Assembly (NCBI GenBank): GCA_947184155.2
Contig: CAMXCT020001823.1
Span: 62,001 to 126,000 of the forward strand
DNA from: Cladocopium goreaui
Lineage: Eukaryota; Sar; Dinophyceae; Suessiales; Symbiodiniaceae
Reading direction: 5' to 3'
Length of the DNA: 64,000 nt
Shown here: piece by piece, positions 678 to 6,404 of the stretch
Numbering within the stretch: position 1 is the stretch's first letter
Layout: each line of letters begins with the position of its first letter
The notes under the pieces: generated by a model
What the model was told of the DNA's origin: nothing
What the model saw: the letters and a program-made list of their open reading frames with translations, nothing else
Databases searched by the model: none
Made by a program: the position numbers and the translations under genes

Positions 678-767
678 TACCCTCTGGTAAACGTTTACAT
701 AGCTATGGAAAATCACCATTTTTAATGGGTAAATCCACTATAGATGGCAATTTTCAATAGCTTTTTC
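678..767. mobile_element. Family A palindromic element, left half (split by hAT)
   Basis: Starts TACCCTCTGGTAAACG and continues with the normal family A interior up to CAATAGCTTTTT, where the hAT element begins. The matching right half is at 6235-6260. Intact relatives read straight through this point (for example 44007-44118), so the split is an insertion. Confidence 0.9.
760..767. other. Left target-site duplication of the hAT element
   Basis: GCTTTTTC here and GCTTTTTG at 6235-6242 differ only in the last base. In uninterrupted family A copies this motif occurs once. Confidence 0.75.
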
Positions 768-775
768 ATGGTGGT

Positions 776-895
776 TTCGGTTCGGTTCGGTTCGGTTTCG
801 GTTTCTAGTATTTGGTATAGGCCCGGTTCGGTTCCTGTTCGGTTTCGGTTCCTGCGGTTCCTGGTTGATTTCGGTTCGGTTCGGTTCGGTGTTTG
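776..895. repeat. Left subterminal GGTTCG-rich tract of the hAT element
   Basis: Many GGTTCGG, GGTTTCGG and GGTTCC units. Arrays of short subterminal repeats are known transposase-binding sites in hAT elements; that role here is an inference. Confidence 0.75.
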
Positions 896-912
896 GAACA
901 TTCTGCATTGAT

Positions 913-945
913 ATTTGCTTTTTTTCCGGCGTCGGAAAAGCAAAT
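913..945. repeat. Common hairpin 1 of the hAT element
   Basis: TTTGCTTTTTTTCC pairs with GGAAAAGCAAA around a short loop, upstream of the H3-like first exon. Confidence 0.8.
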
Positions 946-1002
946 ACAGATTGCTTCCCGCAAGAGGTTTATAGCTCAGGCCTTTCTAGGTGCTTGAAAG
1001 CC

Positions 1003-1964
1003 ATGTCGAGGATGTGCCAGGCCCACTTGTTGCCTCCATGCTTGCGACATCCCGAAATCCTTCTTGCTGTGGGCATTTCATTGCATGGCCTTCCTGAAAT
1101 GCCACCTCAGCCCGAAGTTCCAGTTGACACTTGTGAGGAAGGGCAGTTAAGGAAGAGGGGCCGCCCCAAGAAGAATGAGCAACGGTTTGTTTCTGGCGAT
1201 GGCCCGAGACAAAGCCAGCGTCGGCAGGTCAGAGCTGCAGAGCATGGTTTGAAAGTTTGAAAGTTGGAATCTAGTTTGGTTTTGGTAACGCATGGAGTTT
1301 CAATCCGTGTCTTATTAGAGCACACTTCCCAAAAAATGTGGGGTTCCTGTCTTCAACGGCTGCCTTCACAGGCTGAATATGAGATAGCGCTACTCCAGAG
1401 CGATTCCTCCATTACGTGTTGTTTGAAATCACCTTTCTCTGCGGAAGTGAAAGAGTTGCTGAAGACGCACAGCAAGGTACAGAGTTCCAAAAGTTGTGGG
1501 GATTTCAGGGAAGTTTTGTTTTTGCTTTTTCAGAAGCGTGAAAAAAACAAATCAGAGGGATTCTTTTATCCCTTCCTTTTGTCACCTTGTTTTCCGACCC
1601 TTCCCCAGCCCGCTCTCTCACCCCCTTTTCCTTCCCCTTCCTCGCCTCTCTGGGGGTGCGTGTGCTGGTGATCCACGTCCCTGCCTGGGGTGGTGTCCCA
1701 CGGCATGGGGTGCGTGCGACCCAGCCACGTCCCCAGCTCCACCCCTTTTCCCTCCCTTCCTCCCCTTCCTCGTCTCTCTGGGGGTGCGTGTGCTGGTGAT
1801 CCACGTCCCTGCCTGGGGTGGTGTCCCACGGCATGGGGTGCGTGCGACCCAGCCACGTCCCCAGAGTCTCTCTCTCTCTCTCTCTCTCATTTGTATGTAT
1901 GTATGTCTGCATGTATATATATATATATATATATTTACATATATATATATTTACATACATATAC

Positions 1965-2054
<90 letters not shown>

Positions 2055-2461
2055 GGGATATGCATATATATATATAAATAATATACTATTTGAATATGTA
2101 TATAGAGGGTATGTATGTGTATATATATATATATACATATAGAGGGTATGTATGTCGGCTGAATCCTTTCTAAAACATCAGAGCGGTGCTCACATGCGGT
2201 CAGGATTTTCCAAGAGCAGACGGCGAAGAGCCGGTGGACTTAAAGATTTCTCGACCAGCTTTGTATCTTCTCCAGCGTGCTGTGGAGAGCTATGGAGTGC
2301 AGCTGATGCACAAGGTGAACCTGTTGGCAAAGCACCGCAAGGCGCAGACGGTGGAGCTCCGCGATTTGCGAGCACTGCTTGCTTTGGAGGCAGCCCACGA
2401 AGGCATGGTTACCCCGGCTTCGTCCAGTTGCTGCGGCTTGAAGAAGGCCCGAAAGTCTTGA
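1003..2461 (+). CDS. Histone H3-fold protein with AT-hook-like tail, inside the hAT element
   Basis: Predicted exons are 1003-1227, 1372-1476 and 2204-2461. Both introns are GT-AG, both junctions are phase 0, and about 195 residues result. Residues 51-57 (KRGRPKK) resemble an AT-hook. From residue 76 the protein follows the H3 fold in order: an A-x-x-E-I helix (76-80) with Q84; K-x-P-F (94-97) then V101 and E103; D-F (111-112); a long loop; D-L (122-123); then A129, L133-Q134, A136, E138, Y140, V142, L144, N149-L150, A152, H154, K156, T159 and D164. From residue 125 to 171 the match to H3 needs no gap, with about 15 identities in 47 positions by eye. There are about four extra residues after helix 1 and seven in loop 1, where CENP-A-type variants are also longer. 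Later starts at 1012 and 1099 are possible. It could also be another histone-fold protein. Its role in the transposon is unknown. Confidence 0.72.
1228..1371 (+). other. Intron 1 of the H3-like gene
   Basis: CAG|GTCAGAG at the 5' end and TGCCTTCACAG|G at the 3' end; 144 nt. It is one of the two introns proposed in the element that lack the common hairpin. Confidence 0.65.
1521..1551. repeat. Common hairpin 2
   Basis: TTTGCTTTTT ... AAAAAAACAAAT within intron 2 of the H3-like gene, with one base altered in the right arm. Confidence 0.7.
1616..1865. repeat. 128-bp tandem duplication in the hAT element
   Basis: A GC-rich unit containing CTCTCTGGGGGTGCG occurs twice with a period of about 128 bp. 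It lies inside intron 2 of the H3-like gene, so the long open frames across it on both strands are probably not genes. Confidence 0.9.
1866..2145. repeat. TC, TA and GATA microsatellite complex
   Basis: A (TC)n run, (TA)n runs and about 14 GATA units, followed by more TA-rich sequence with two copies of ATAGAGGGTATGTATGT. Still inside intron 2 of the H3-like gene. Confidence 0.95.
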
Positions 2462-2638
2462 AGCTGAAGGGCTAGGGTCCATGTGCGGCATTGAGATTAG
2501 CCTTTTTTTGCTTTTGTTTGTACAACAAGTTGCGAAGGATCGGCTTGTTTGTGGGGAGACTCTTGACTTGACAGTCAAGCCATGGAGAGCTCTGAGGAAG
2601 AAAACATGCCTAGACATGTACGGAGGACATGGCAGTTC

Positions 2639-2669
2639 TTGCTTTTTCAAAGGGCCAGAGAAAGCAAAT
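2639..2669. repeat. Common hairpin 3
   Basis: TTGCTTTTTC ... GAGAAAGCAA, between the two genes of the element. Confidence 0.75.
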
Positions 2670-2694
2670 CCAATCGGTTGGTCAAGGATTTGTG

Positions 2695-2728
2695 TTTTGC
2701 GTTTTTGAAGGGTCAGAGAAAGCAAATC
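2695..2728. repeat. Common hairpin 4
   Basis: TTTTGCGTTTTTGA ... AGAAAGCAAAT. Its loop (AGGGTCAGAG) resembles that of hairpin 3, so these two look like a local duplication. Confidence 0.7.
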
Positions 2729-2943
2729 CATCTCTTGTCTGTGCAGATTGATTTTCTGGACATGGCCAGCTCGCGAATGGTCTGTGTGCGTAGTGATTAG
2801 TGCTAGATCACAAATAGAAAGCAGCAGATTGACTTGCATACCATTTGGCCACTTGCAAGTGCCTGTGAGCCCTGCGGTTCAATCATCAAAAGCTGCAGGC
2901 CACCCCACGCAATGTAGTTTGAATCCTTGACCTCGCTGTTGCT

Positions 2944-5900
2944 ATGTCCTTTGCTCACGAGTATTTCCATGCGAAACGAGCAGAGACAGGGCATCTTCGT
3001 TTCTGCAAGATCTGTGCACCAGAAATCCCTCCTTTGAAGGACGTGCTGGCTGCGAAAGATTCAGGGAAGAATTTGACCAAAGAGTTTCTCAAGTTTGGGG
3101 CGGTGCAGAACGATGCCAGCACCAGTGCGATGGTCAACCATCTACGTCTGAAGCACCCAGAGACTCTCCCCAGCGGAACTCCTGTGAAACGGAAAAGCAG
3201 CGCAGATGATGTTCAGACCACGCCCAGAGACAAAACGCTCTGCAGAGATTGGGTAGAGCATATGCTTTTTGCTGCCTTAGAACCTGCCAGACTGGTGGAG
3301 TCCAAACATGCAAAAGCAGTGCTGGTTCCTCACATGGGTCCATTGCCAACCCGCAAAGAAGTCACGCGTGAAGCTGACCTTGCTGTGAAGGATATCGAAC
3401 AAGAGGTGGTCCAGATAGTCAAGGAAAGTTTGGAAGCTGGTGCAAAATTCACGCTGTCTGCGGATACGTGGAAGCCAAAGGCCAAAAAGAGGAAACATTT
3501 TTTGGCTATGTACTTGAACTTCATTTCTCCGACCTGGGAGCCTTGCAGCCTCTGCGCTGGCGTTGTGGAAGCACCTCCTCCTCGCACAGGACTAAGCTCC
3601 AGATGTTTATAATTGTTTCTTTTTTGTGGGAGCAGGGTTGCGTATTTGCTTTTTGGATATCCTCAAAAAAGCAAACCTGTGCTGAAGCGTTTCTGGTGCA
3701 GGACAAGCATATACGCAGCACTTCCAGACACTCTTGAAGGGCATGGTGTTGAGCACTTCAGATCTAATTGGTGCCTTCTCCGACCATGAGTCGGCAATCA
3801 GAGCTGGGCTACGGGGGTTGGAGTGCGCTTTGATAGGATGTGGAGCTCATGCGATACAGCTCGCCATCAAACATGCTGTCCCACCTTTACGTCCTCCCCG
3901 CAAAGCGGCTAAGCGGCAGCAACGTGGAACATCCTCATCTTCGTCTTCGGACACCAGCAGTTCCAGCAGCGGCAGTGCCTTGGTATTCAAGACATGGTTT
4001 TCTTTTGTATTCTAAAATCCAGAGCACTGGTCTTTGCAGCTGGTACCTTGGACCGCTTTTGCTTTTTTGGGCGTTCAAAAAATGCAAATCAGGCTCTTCC
4101 TCATCTAGTGACAGAGAGGGCGGAGCCGGTGCAGCGCCTCAGGCCGCGGCAGAGCGCAAGAGGCCTGGGAGAAAGATCGACCCTGAAGCAGCTGAACTGC
4201 GCGCAAGTCTGGAGCGTCCTTTCAAGAGGCCAGGAAGAAACGATTTGCGTTCAATTTTTCAAACCTGTTGGTATAGCTGTTGGGGCGATGTTTTCTATAT
4301 CGACACCCATTCTCAAAGCAAGCAAGCAGCTGACAGGTACCGGGCTATCGCAAAATTTTTTGCCCACAGAGAAGATCAATACACTTTCTTGGAACAGGAG
4401 GCACAAGCGGCATCCTTGCCTTTCGTTGCATACAAATATGGGACTCCAACTCGATGGTCATCATGCTTGCTTCAGCTCATCTCGGTACTGCAGAACAATC
4501 CAGCACATGCTTTGCTAAGGCCTGTTGGAACTCTGGACACTTTGTTGTGCAAAATCTGTGCTGTTTGTGAATTTGAAGTTTGGGCCTGTGTCATCTGCAT
4601 GTTAACATATTTGCTTTTTTCCCCGGCCCAAAAAAGCAAATCTGCACAGAACAGACTGTTTTTCCGTTTTCTTCCCTGGGCAGGTCGAAGCGGAAAGTCG
4701 ACGGACCTGCAGAATTGGACAGGAAGGAGATCCAGGAAGCAGTCCAGTTATGTGCTGTGCTCGAGCCGCTGCGACTGGCCACCAAACTTGTTGAAGGGGA
4801 AGAAAGAGCTCCTGCATCTCTCTATTTGCCTTTGTTTTTCCAAACGTCTGAAACTTTGAAGAAACGGAAGGGAAGCTTGCCTTTGCCAAAGGAGCTTCGA
4901 GAAAGGCATGGGGCTGCAGTGCAGATTTCCAACTTGCTCCCTCTCCCTGACAAACTTCGTGATTTTTTGAGCAAGGACATCCAAGCCATTCGAGCCAAGC
5001 ACCTGACAGGGACTACAGGGGACGACCTTCTAGCGGCATCCACATTTCTTGACATTCGATTCCAACAACATGACCTGTGGAAGAGTTACTTATCAAAAGA
5101 CACTGTGCAGAAGTCGGTTGCTCACATGGCATTTGAAGCTTCGAGCCAGTACCCGAACTTGATAGCTCGTCTACAGAAGCAAAGTGACGACCCCATGAAC
5201 TGGAGTTTGGCTGCTCTTGGAGAGTCGGCTGCTGGCAAAGCCAAAGCTCGAGGACGTGCAGCTCGCGGACGTGGCCGTGGACGAGGTGCGGGCAGAGCTG
5301 CATCCGCCAAATCACAGCCACGCACGGCTGCTGAGGTTGTTTTGCAAACAGCTGCCGCCCCGACCGGGCAACGTGTCCAAAGACGGCTTCGCGAGCAAAC
5401 CTCAGCTGAAGGTTGGCTTTTCGGTTCTGCGCCAAAGGATGGTGGAGAGACAGAACAAGCTGTCCTTGACGATGTGCAATCAGTGTCTCGGAATGATAAT
5501 TGCTGATTGAATACCATTGTTGACTTTGTCCGTTTTGTTCTGTTTTTTTGCGCGTCGAATAGAAATGACGGACGTGTTTCATATTGGCTCATCTGGGTTT
5601 TGCTTTTTTCAGCCTCTCAAAAAAGCAAATCAGGTGAAGAAAGCCATTGAAGAGGAATTGATCGTTTACGGCCGTCTCCAAATGCCACTGCAATTTGATG
5701 CTGGACCTTTGAAGTTCTGGCGCATGCATTCGTGCAAGCTCCCCTATTTGGCCGCACTGGCTTTTCAAATTCTGGGAATTCCAGCTTCCACTTCGCAAGT
5801 TGAACGTTTGTTTAGTGCAGCGGGCCGGGCCATTGGGCGCCGGCGTCCGCGACTCAGTGCCAAAAGAGGAGCACAGATTATATATGGCCATGCAAATGTC

Positions 5901-5963
5901 ACTAGAGGAATCACGGGCCGTGCGTTTCACGAGCAGCGGCTTTCAAAGAGCGGAGAGAGCTGA
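2944..5963 (+). CDS. hAT-family transposase, intact, five exons
   Basis: Exons 2944-3589, 3702-3971, 4093-4519, 4684-5482 and 5634-5963 total 2472 nt, giving 823 residues and a stop. The introns begin GA, GC, GC and GT and all end AG; each restores frame. Residues C21, C24, H66 and H71 form a BED-type zinc finger. DDE candidates are D174 (in FTLSADTW), D243 (in FSDHESA) and E771 (in STSQVERLFSAAG). The C-terminal segment (WRMHSCKLPYLAALAFQILG followed by the VERLF motif) is the hAT dimerisation domain. A Ser-rich linker spans the exon 2/3 junction and a Gly-Arg-rich tract lies near the end of exon 4. A further in-frame GA-AG intron at 4234-4329 is possible, since its translation is unlike hAT proteins. 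It probably mobilises this element and any relatives sharing its ends. Confidence 0.9.
3590..3701 (+). other. Transposase intron 1, GA-AG
   Basis: CGCACAG|GACTAAG to GGTGCAG|GACAAG, 112 nt. The join gives PPRTGQAYTQHFQ, which fits hAT proteins. GA 5' splice sites are known in dinoflagellates. Confidence 0.75.
3643..3676. repeat. Common hairpin 5
   Basis: ATTTGCTTTTTGG ... AAAAAAGCAAA inside transposase intron 1. Confidence 0.8.
3972..4092 (+). other. Transposase intron 2, GC-AG
   Basis: AGCAGCG|GCAGTG to CAAATCAG|GCTC, 121 nt. It joins two serine-rich stretches in frame. Because the flanks are low-complexity, the exact junction could shift. Confidence 0.65.
4058..4089. repeat. Common hairpin 6
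   Basis: TTTGCTTTTTTG ... AAAAAATGCAAAT inside transposase intron 2, ending three bases before the 3' splice site. Confidence 0.8.
4520..4683 (+). other. Transposase intron 3, GC-AG
   Basis: CTAAG|GCCTGTTG to CTGGGCAG|GTCG, 164 nt. The join gives ALLRSKRKVDG. Confidence 0.65.
4608..4641. repeat. Common hairpin 7
   Basis: ATTTGCTTTTTT ... AAAAAAGCAAAT inside transposase intron 3. Confidence 0.85.
5483..5633 (+). other. Transposase intron 4, GT-AG
   Basis: CAATCA|GTGTCT to CAAATCAG|GTGAAG, 151 nt. An alternative 5' site slightly upstream (GC at 5459) would also keep frame. Confidence 0.55.
5598..5630. repeat. Common hairpin 8
   Basis: TTTTGCTTTTTT ... AAAAAAGCAAAT inside transposase intron 4, ending three bases before the 3' splice site. 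Confidence 0.85.
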
Positions 5964-6027
5964 ACTCGGGAAAACCAAAGCTTCCTGAAATTGTCAGTGC
6001 ATGCAAGTTATTATTGAAGAATCCCAT

Positions 6028-6060
6028 ATTTGCTTTTTGCATTGAACTCAAAAAGCAATT
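6028..6060. repeat. Common hairpin 9
   Basis: ATTTGCTTTTTG ... CAAAAAGCAATT downstream of the transposase stop codon. Confidence 0.75.
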
Positions 6061-6109
6061 ACAATTTTTCCAATCAGTTTATTGGGAAAGGGTCCCGAAG
6101 AGGGTAAGA

Positions 6110-6225
6110 CGGTTCCGGTTCCTCCGGTTCGGTTTTGTATACGGTTCCAGGGGTTCACGGTTCCTACAGTTCGTAAACTATTTGATTTTCTACGGTTCGG
6201 TTCCACGGTTCCGGTTCGGTTCCAG
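6110..6225. repeat. Right subterminal GGTTCC/GGTTCG-rich tract of the hAT element
   Basis: The same motif class as the left tract, and on the same strand, so the two arrays are direct rather than mirror images. Confidence 0.75.
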
Positions 6226-6234
6226 AACCTTCAT

Positions 6235-6242
6235 GCTTTTTG
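6235..6242. other. Right target-site duplication of the hAT element
   Basis: Partner of 760-767. The family A sequence continues from here as TATGTTTACCAGAGGGTA. Confidence 0.75.
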
Positions 6243-6260
6243 TATGTTTACCAGAGGGTA
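6235..6260. mobile_element. Family A element, right half
   Basis: TTTTTGTATGTTTACCAGAGGGTA completes the copy begun at 678. Confidence 0.9.
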
Positions 6261-6404
6261 ATCCAATTCGTAGGGATACCGTTCTTAGGATGTTCTTAGG
6301 CAACCAGTACAACGAGATGGGAAAACCGGTGTTTAAACTTTTATGGCTCCACTGAGCCCAGGATTGTTAGCTCGTCATTTCGCTTGCACTCGCCGGCTTT
6401 TTTC

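Follow-up and report, generated by a model that had tools for sequence, protein, structure and literature searches.

A hAT transposon of Cladocopium goreaui carries a divergent histone H3 gene that looks like a selected accessory gene

The stretch of Cladocopium goreaui DNA analysed here (64 kb, "the window") contains a transposon of 5,469 bp at 767–6235 on the forward strand, with ends CATGGTGG..CCTTCATG, whose two predicted genes, an H3 variant and a transposase, lie on the same strand. The ends are common to a second copy at another site (C1779), and in the window they are flanked by exact copies of the target-site duplication CTTTTT (761–766 and 6236–6241). The preliminary description had placed the H3-like gene inside boundaries set by a split host element, and it lies inside the re-derived ends as well: the insertion divides a host inverted-repeat element into a left part at 678–766 and a right part at 6236–6268, both on the forward strand. 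This host element has 36 other matching stretches in the window, some of them the two arms of one copy, and the empty site, TAGCTTTTTGTA, is read in 2 of its 8 printed copies. It is an abundant short element that starts with TACCCTCTGGTAA and has inverted ends. Inspection for repeats also revealed subterminal TTCGG repeats at 776–890 (+) of the transposon.

Members of the hAT superfamily typically have an 8-bp target-site duplication and short terminal inverted repeats of the CAGTG type. The duplication here is 6 bp, and the superfamily assignment is made because of the transposase; an 8-bp duplication with ends at 768/6234 was considered and fails at C1779, where 6 bp with ends at 767/6235 fits. 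The exact 6-bp duplication is found in 15 of the 18 copies examined, representing 14 distinct sites because two of them (L040 and L043) have common flanks; one further copy is without any duplication and two are unplaceable. The element has been mobile recently. Its target duplications are 81% A+T (68 of 84 bases over the 14 sites) versus 59% in the window (p = 3e-5 if the bases are treated as independent), and this preference may belong to the transposase. The terminal repeats are of the CAGTG type, with a CAGTG start in 12 and an ACTG end in 10 of the 14 measured short copies (see below), and read CATGG..CATG in the window copy.

The element contains nine short hairpins of the form TTTGCTTTTT..AAAAAGCAAA (914, 1514, 2638, 2689, 3645, 4058, 4610, 5599, and 6029), and by a loose criterion there is one more elsewhere in the 64-kb window (7236). 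One lies in each of four inferred transposase introns and one in intron 2 of the histone gene, and there are four in the sister locus L034; they resemble introner-type elements, here concentrated within the transposon. Rfam and tRNA scans of the window gave no result, Pfam found no match in nine long ORFs elsewhere in the window, and scans of the viral contigs and genome contigs collections were likewise without result.

The H3-like gene is divided into three exons, all on the forward strand: exon 1 (1003–1227) encodes the tail, exon 2 (1372–1476) helix N, the K-S-P-F entry motif and helix 1, and exon 3 (2204–2461) loop 1, helix 2, loop 2, helix 3, and the stop codon. As the preliminary description had proposed, joining them across two GT–AG introns (1228–1371 and 1477–2203, the second with a hairpin near 1514–1521 and simple repeats) keeps the frame and gives, on this predicted splicing, a protein of 195 residues and a stop. 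The AT-hook-like KRGRPKK reported there is indeed present in the tail, at a Pfam AT_hook score of 13.8 bits, which is under the cut-off of 17.4. The tail is otherwise unrelated to that of canonical H3: it is without the contexts of K4, K9, and K27, and no canonical modification motif was found in it.

Profile search bears out the H3 core claimed earlier. The spliced protein matches Pfam Histone significantly over residues 70–167 (29.0 bits, E = 1.4e-6, against a curated cut-off of 26.4 bits), and the exon-3 ORF, for which no splicing choice is needed, reaches 27.4 bits by itself. When all 1,607 stop-to-stop ORFs of at least 25 residues in the 64-kb window were ranked against the helix 2–helix 3 half of yeast H3, Cse4, and CID, the exon-3 ORF came top, scoring 81, 76, and 74, respectively, with the runner-up ORF at 37, 40, and 33. 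Exon 2 alone is weak, ranking second of the 1,607 for Cse4 and being outscored by at least four ORFs for yeast H3 and by three or more for CID, and gains support because a matching exon recurs in the sister family L034; its entry motif is KSPF in the window and in P0002, ELPF in P0003, and KLPF in P0004 and P0005. Shuffling the spliced protein 2,000 times never gave its score against yeast H3, Cse4, or CID, and the segment from helix 2 through loop 2 to helix 3 aligns with all three without a gap. Identity to yeast H3 is 33% over 73 residues. A chance ORF is thus excluded by the ranking and shuffles and by the codon selection between families described below, and the three-exon gene at 1003–2461, as predicted from sequence, is confirmed to encode a divergent H3 core with an AT-hook tail. 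Structure prediction, which had been put forward as a check, did not add to this: a single-sequence fold of exon 3 alone has a pLDDT of 67, and no histone is among the 50 Foldseek matches listed for it, these being RuvBL proteins with E of 0.14 or worse.

The transposase (2944–5963) starts 482 bp downstream of the H3-like gene and has at least five predicted exons. Exon A (2944–3589) has a zinc-finger-like start and the first catalytic-type D, in SADTW; exon B (3702–3974) contains SDHE and GCGAH..QL; exon C (4093–4519) has an approximate 3′ end and includes 36 residues absent in relatives, probably a further intron near 4229–4336; exon D (4684–5482) has an approximate 5′ end; and exon E (5634–5963) carries the hAT dimerisation domain and the stop codon, all on the forward strand. 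The reading frame is open along these inferred exons and Dimer_Tnp_hAT matches with E = 1.3e-12, so the impression of an intact adjoining transposase holds. A profile of the window transposase and three relatives matches Hermes in the dimerisation region (E = 1.1e-5). D174, D243, and GCG.H..QL are invariant in the four sequences, and ERLFSAAG is present in the two rows that reach it; we take these to be the D, D, and E of hAT transposases with the C..H block between them. Five relatives were found in databases, two of them species-named (Durusdinium trenchii and Symbiodinium microadriaticum), in keeping with a dinoflagellate host. A Symbiodinium microadriaticum entry named cytochrome P450 120 (P0009) has a hAT transposase segment between P450-like ends, and probably reflects a gene model that was extended through an inserted element.

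Exon 3, exons 1–2, and transposase exon A were each found in at least two places of the home assembly (1.17 Gb in 6,202 contigs, with all repeat counts being lower bounds), and these are the same two: the window and C1779. Both are full-length element copies with an intact histone gene, and no unlinked histone copy was found in the home assembly. The pattern which, according to the preliminary description, would speak against a transposon gene, namely copies without the segment together with unlinked host copies, is therefore not what we see, since the traced copies without the histone are also without the transposase. The second copy and the sister families rule out a one-off event in which a single insertion trapped a unique host gene. 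The element ends are far more frequent, with at least 35 matches to the right end and at least 40 scored, of 62 candidates, to the left end. At 28 further places, from lists compared by hand, both ends match within ~40 bp of each other, which leaves no room for a histone or transposase gene; 16 of these short copies were retrieved, and the 14 with located ends measure 493–706 bp. As they moved without the H3 gene, it is not needed in cis.

In C1779, the transposase is damaged by a 5-bp deletion in exon A and by ~170 bp missing near 5602–5770. The histone exons there have no gap and differ from those of the window by three substitutions in 588 nt (two replacement, one silent), too few for a test of selection from that pair. 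Further public copies in ENA, differing from both the window and C1779, cover exon 1 (P0001), exon 2 (P0002–P0005), and exon 3 (P0006, where it is frame-shifted); in P0003–P0005, histone intron 2 runs straight into the 3′ end of the element. P0001 may be the C1779 copy, because its one exon-1 replacement is common to both.

A search of the home assembly with the transposase exon A protein recovered eight loci in five lineages. In the sister family L034, of which L037 is a copy with exon 3 visible, the transposase is 53% identical, and a three-exon H3 gene lies upstream of it, in the same place as in the window. Its exons (L034 869–1072, 1276–1389, and 3404–3652) match those of the window in the same order, with a matching hydrophobic start and an AT-hook, and an alignment of the two histones over 181 positions shows 42.5% identity (E = 5e-40). 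A comparison of 176 codons gives pS = 0.833 and pN = 0.372 (Fisher p = 3e-20), close to the values for exon A of the two transposases (0.861 and 0.33); by blastn, the two elements align as DNA in nothing more than a pair of short transposase segments, simple repeats, and the hairpin. This contrast of silent and replacement sites, together with the near absence of DNA alignment, indicates that strong purifying selection acted on the histone protein while the families diverged. A third lineage (C284/L022, transposase 43%) has a single-exon H3-like ORF of 316 residues, unlike the window gene, ~500 bp upstream of the transposase, which in L022 scores 38.6 bits against Pfam Histone. The codon comparison of the window and L022 transposases spans just 41 codons and is set aside. 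In C202 and C6181, two further lineages, the ~3.9 kb upstream of the transposase showed no H3. Altogether H3 is upstream of the transposase at 5 of the 8 loci and in 3 of the 5 lineages, with the flanks of C4283 left out.

H3-like genes also stand beside a second group of transposases. PF00125 has 22 places in the home assembly, 20 of which were taken with flanks, and six of these 20 loci contain either a first-group transposase (L022) or a second-group one (L015, L016, L017, L025, and L026). We take the second group to be hAT as well, because of a zf-C17orf113 zinc finger (32.0 bits in L015 against a cut-off of 29.5, and below the cut-off in L017) and the D..D..C-A-x-H order; a profile comparison of the two groups was not significant (E = 0.28). 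In L015, L016, L025, and L026 the H3 gene is upstream of the transposase on the same strand. Locus L017 has the transposase at 653–2319 followed by an H3-like ORF downstream at 4768–5133, again on the same strand. A search with the second-group transposase reached seven contigs, with H3 upstream at four and downstream at one (C1224 left out), and in C3228 there is no H3 within 4.4 kb upstream, the contig ending soon after. Its absence upstream in C202, C6181, and C3228 implies that some relatives do without H3 or have lost it. The H3s of L015 and L025 are constrained relative to each other (365 codons, p = 5e-21), and the ends of the second-group elements are not fixable, owing to tandem repeats and unreadable stretches. 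The histone profile for the locus scan was built partly from these loci, so that its E-values for them are not independent; hits independent of it are only those in L033 (a copy of the window gene), L034, and L037.

A 16-row H3 tree groups the window, L034, C399 (L001/L015), and L025 (87/81) and puts L022 elsewhere, on a long branch, a grouping that is provisional since most branches are without resolution. The L022 and second-group H3s are highly dissimilar and may stem from independent captures. Other H3-like genes were seen during this survey. Loci L009–L014 and L028 have an H3-like ORF, of ~298 residues in most, within nearly identical repeats of several kb that include tandem arrays; this may be a further H3 that has been amplified or is mobile. 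Locus L024 holds an H3-like gene at 4607–5362 (−) with the AT-hook KKGRPRK and a hydrophobic start like that of window exon 1; identity is 32% across 176 codons, and its 10-kb locus showed no transposase from either of the two groups. The gene at 4641–5861 (−) in L021 encodes a long lysine-rich protein whose core, by eye, looks like H2A rather than H3.

The analysis establishes the H3 sequence signature, the linkage to the transposase, the recent mobility of the element, the selection between two families, and the recurrence beside other hAT-type transposases, and on this basis the H3-like gene looks like a selected accessory gene and not a chance passenger. That it is an accessory gene kept by selection in a hAT lineage we regard as very probable. 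The account that we find reasonably probable as a whole is that of a long-kept accessory H3 variant which aids the transposase through chromatin. A hAT lineage with 6-bp target duplications would have kept the H3 gene for a long time; its product would be spliced, expressed, and paired with the H4 of the host; and the histone core and AT-hook tail would hold the protein on AT-rich DNA, either at the ends of the element or at its targets. In a nucleus with few nucleosomes, this could provide the transposase with usable DNA, and help transposition or the choice of target. For the individual steps, a chromatin protein paired with H4 is the slightly favored reading of the core. The counterparts of H113, T118, and D123, in what we take to be H3 numbering, are kept in the alignment with yeast H3, Cse4, and CID, and R83 is present as K, which fits H4 pairing and DNA contact if these residues have the roles we assume; R116 is not kept. 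The A+T richness of the target duplications would fit a protein that seeks such DNA. A role in targeting or complex assembly is put forward tentatively.

Shielding from silencing, the nearest rival, appears somewhat unlikely as the role. There, the H3 of the element would replace that of the host and, without the canonical tail lysine contexts, could not take repressive marks, so that the element stays open. The unrelated tail and the selection on the protein are both in keeping with this, but H3-based silencing in dinoflagellates is itself uncertain, going by the available text of PMC4751559. Selection on the protein weighs differently for a captured host H3 variant that is simply carried along, as the fungal cases are read in the available portions of PMC3538342 and PMC6710886. 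Those precedents, and the fact that the host has divergent H3-like genes of its own, make such a passenger conceivable, but purifying selection between sister families whose silent sites are saturated, the exons, exon order, and AT-hook kept between the window and L034, and, in C1779, a histone gene that stays intact next to a transposase with damage render it decidedly unlikely.

A histone-fold regulator working outside nucleosomes, which would bind the subterminal TTCGG repeats or the transposase and control transposition, is also unlikely: the AT-hook would suit it, as would weak side matches to the histone folds of CENP-T, TFIID, and NF-Y, but H3 and CenH3 come first among the PDB matches and the H3 landmarks from loop 2 to helix 3 are retained. 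The preliminary description had considered the protein possibly CenH3-like. In favor of this, CID (4e-4) and Cse4 (6e-4) are the best PDB sequence matches of the spliced protein, ahead of canonical H3 (4e-3), and loop 1 is longer, as in CID and Cse4; against it, exon 3 alone scores best with yeast H3 among yeast H3, Cse4, and CID, and the 16-row tree does not place the window H3 with Cse4 and leaves the position of CID without resolution. As the gene moreover belongs to a multi-site element, a mobile centromeric H3 is highly improbable.

Returning to the accessory H3 variant, we consider it an evenly balanced proposition that hAT elements took up H3 more than once and that, in the C. goreaui genome, it has been kept under selection as a transposon-encoded nucleosome subunit preparing or protecting the element's own chromatin. 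If so, the fungal and the present H3-hATs would have arrived at one strategy by convergence, and some of the divergent H3s so far listed for dinoflagellates would come from transposons, not from the host's own histone genes; such an origin may bear on why nucleosome-poor nuclei keep histones. The pairing of histone and transposase has outlasted a divergence between sister families of about half of the transposase residues, with the histone protein under selection, and this opens a testable question: does a transposon use its own histone for target choice, complex assembly, or escape from silencing?

Among the matches listed in the open-licence PMC literature, we found no report of an H3-bearing hAT element in dinoflagellates. 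The preliminary description went further and knew of no DNA transposon carrying an H3 variant, which is superseded by published fungal elements: one in Pyrenophora tritici-repentis, with ESTs for its H3-like gene (Manning et al. 2013, PMC3538342), and hAT elements with captured H3 in Pseudocercospora fijiensis and in five other fungal genomes (Dhillon et al. 2019, PMC6710886), both read as gene capture in the text available to us. Like these fungal H3-hATs, the window element has an H3 gene and a hAT transposase within one set of ends. The P. tritici-repentis element, as far as the accessible text describes it (PMC3538342), is similar in having a hAT transposase with a dimerisation domain and an H3-like gene between terminal inverted repeats, in its size of about 5.6 kb, and in the existence of a shortened recombinant form, as here. 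Its copies form a single, very similar family, interpreted as the product of recent transduplication, and carry an extra ORF in the center. The window element, known from sequence alone, differs in its introns, AT-hook tail, and more divergent core, and in its several families with measured selection. The P. fijiensis element also has an H3-like sequence between the terminal repeats of a hAT; from the portions available (PMC6710886), it is an intronless copy captured from the housekeeping H3, inactivated by RIP, about 9.5 kb long and with 8-bp duplications, unlike the window element with its two introns, its histone intact in both full copies, and its 6-bp duplications.

Compared with Hermes and other hAT transposases, the dimerisation region is alike, and the 6-bp duplications, the introns, and the additional H3 gene set the window element apart. 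CID and Cse4 resemble the window protein as its best PDB matches and in the longer loop 1, and differ from it by its AT-hook tail. The divergent dinoflagellate H3 variants of Marinov and Lynch (PMC4751559), likened here by description only and from the text available, also combine a divergent core with an unusual tail, while the window H3 is transposon-borne. The H3-bearing hAT is thus already published from fungi; what is new is its retention under selection, in several families, and in a dinoflagellate.
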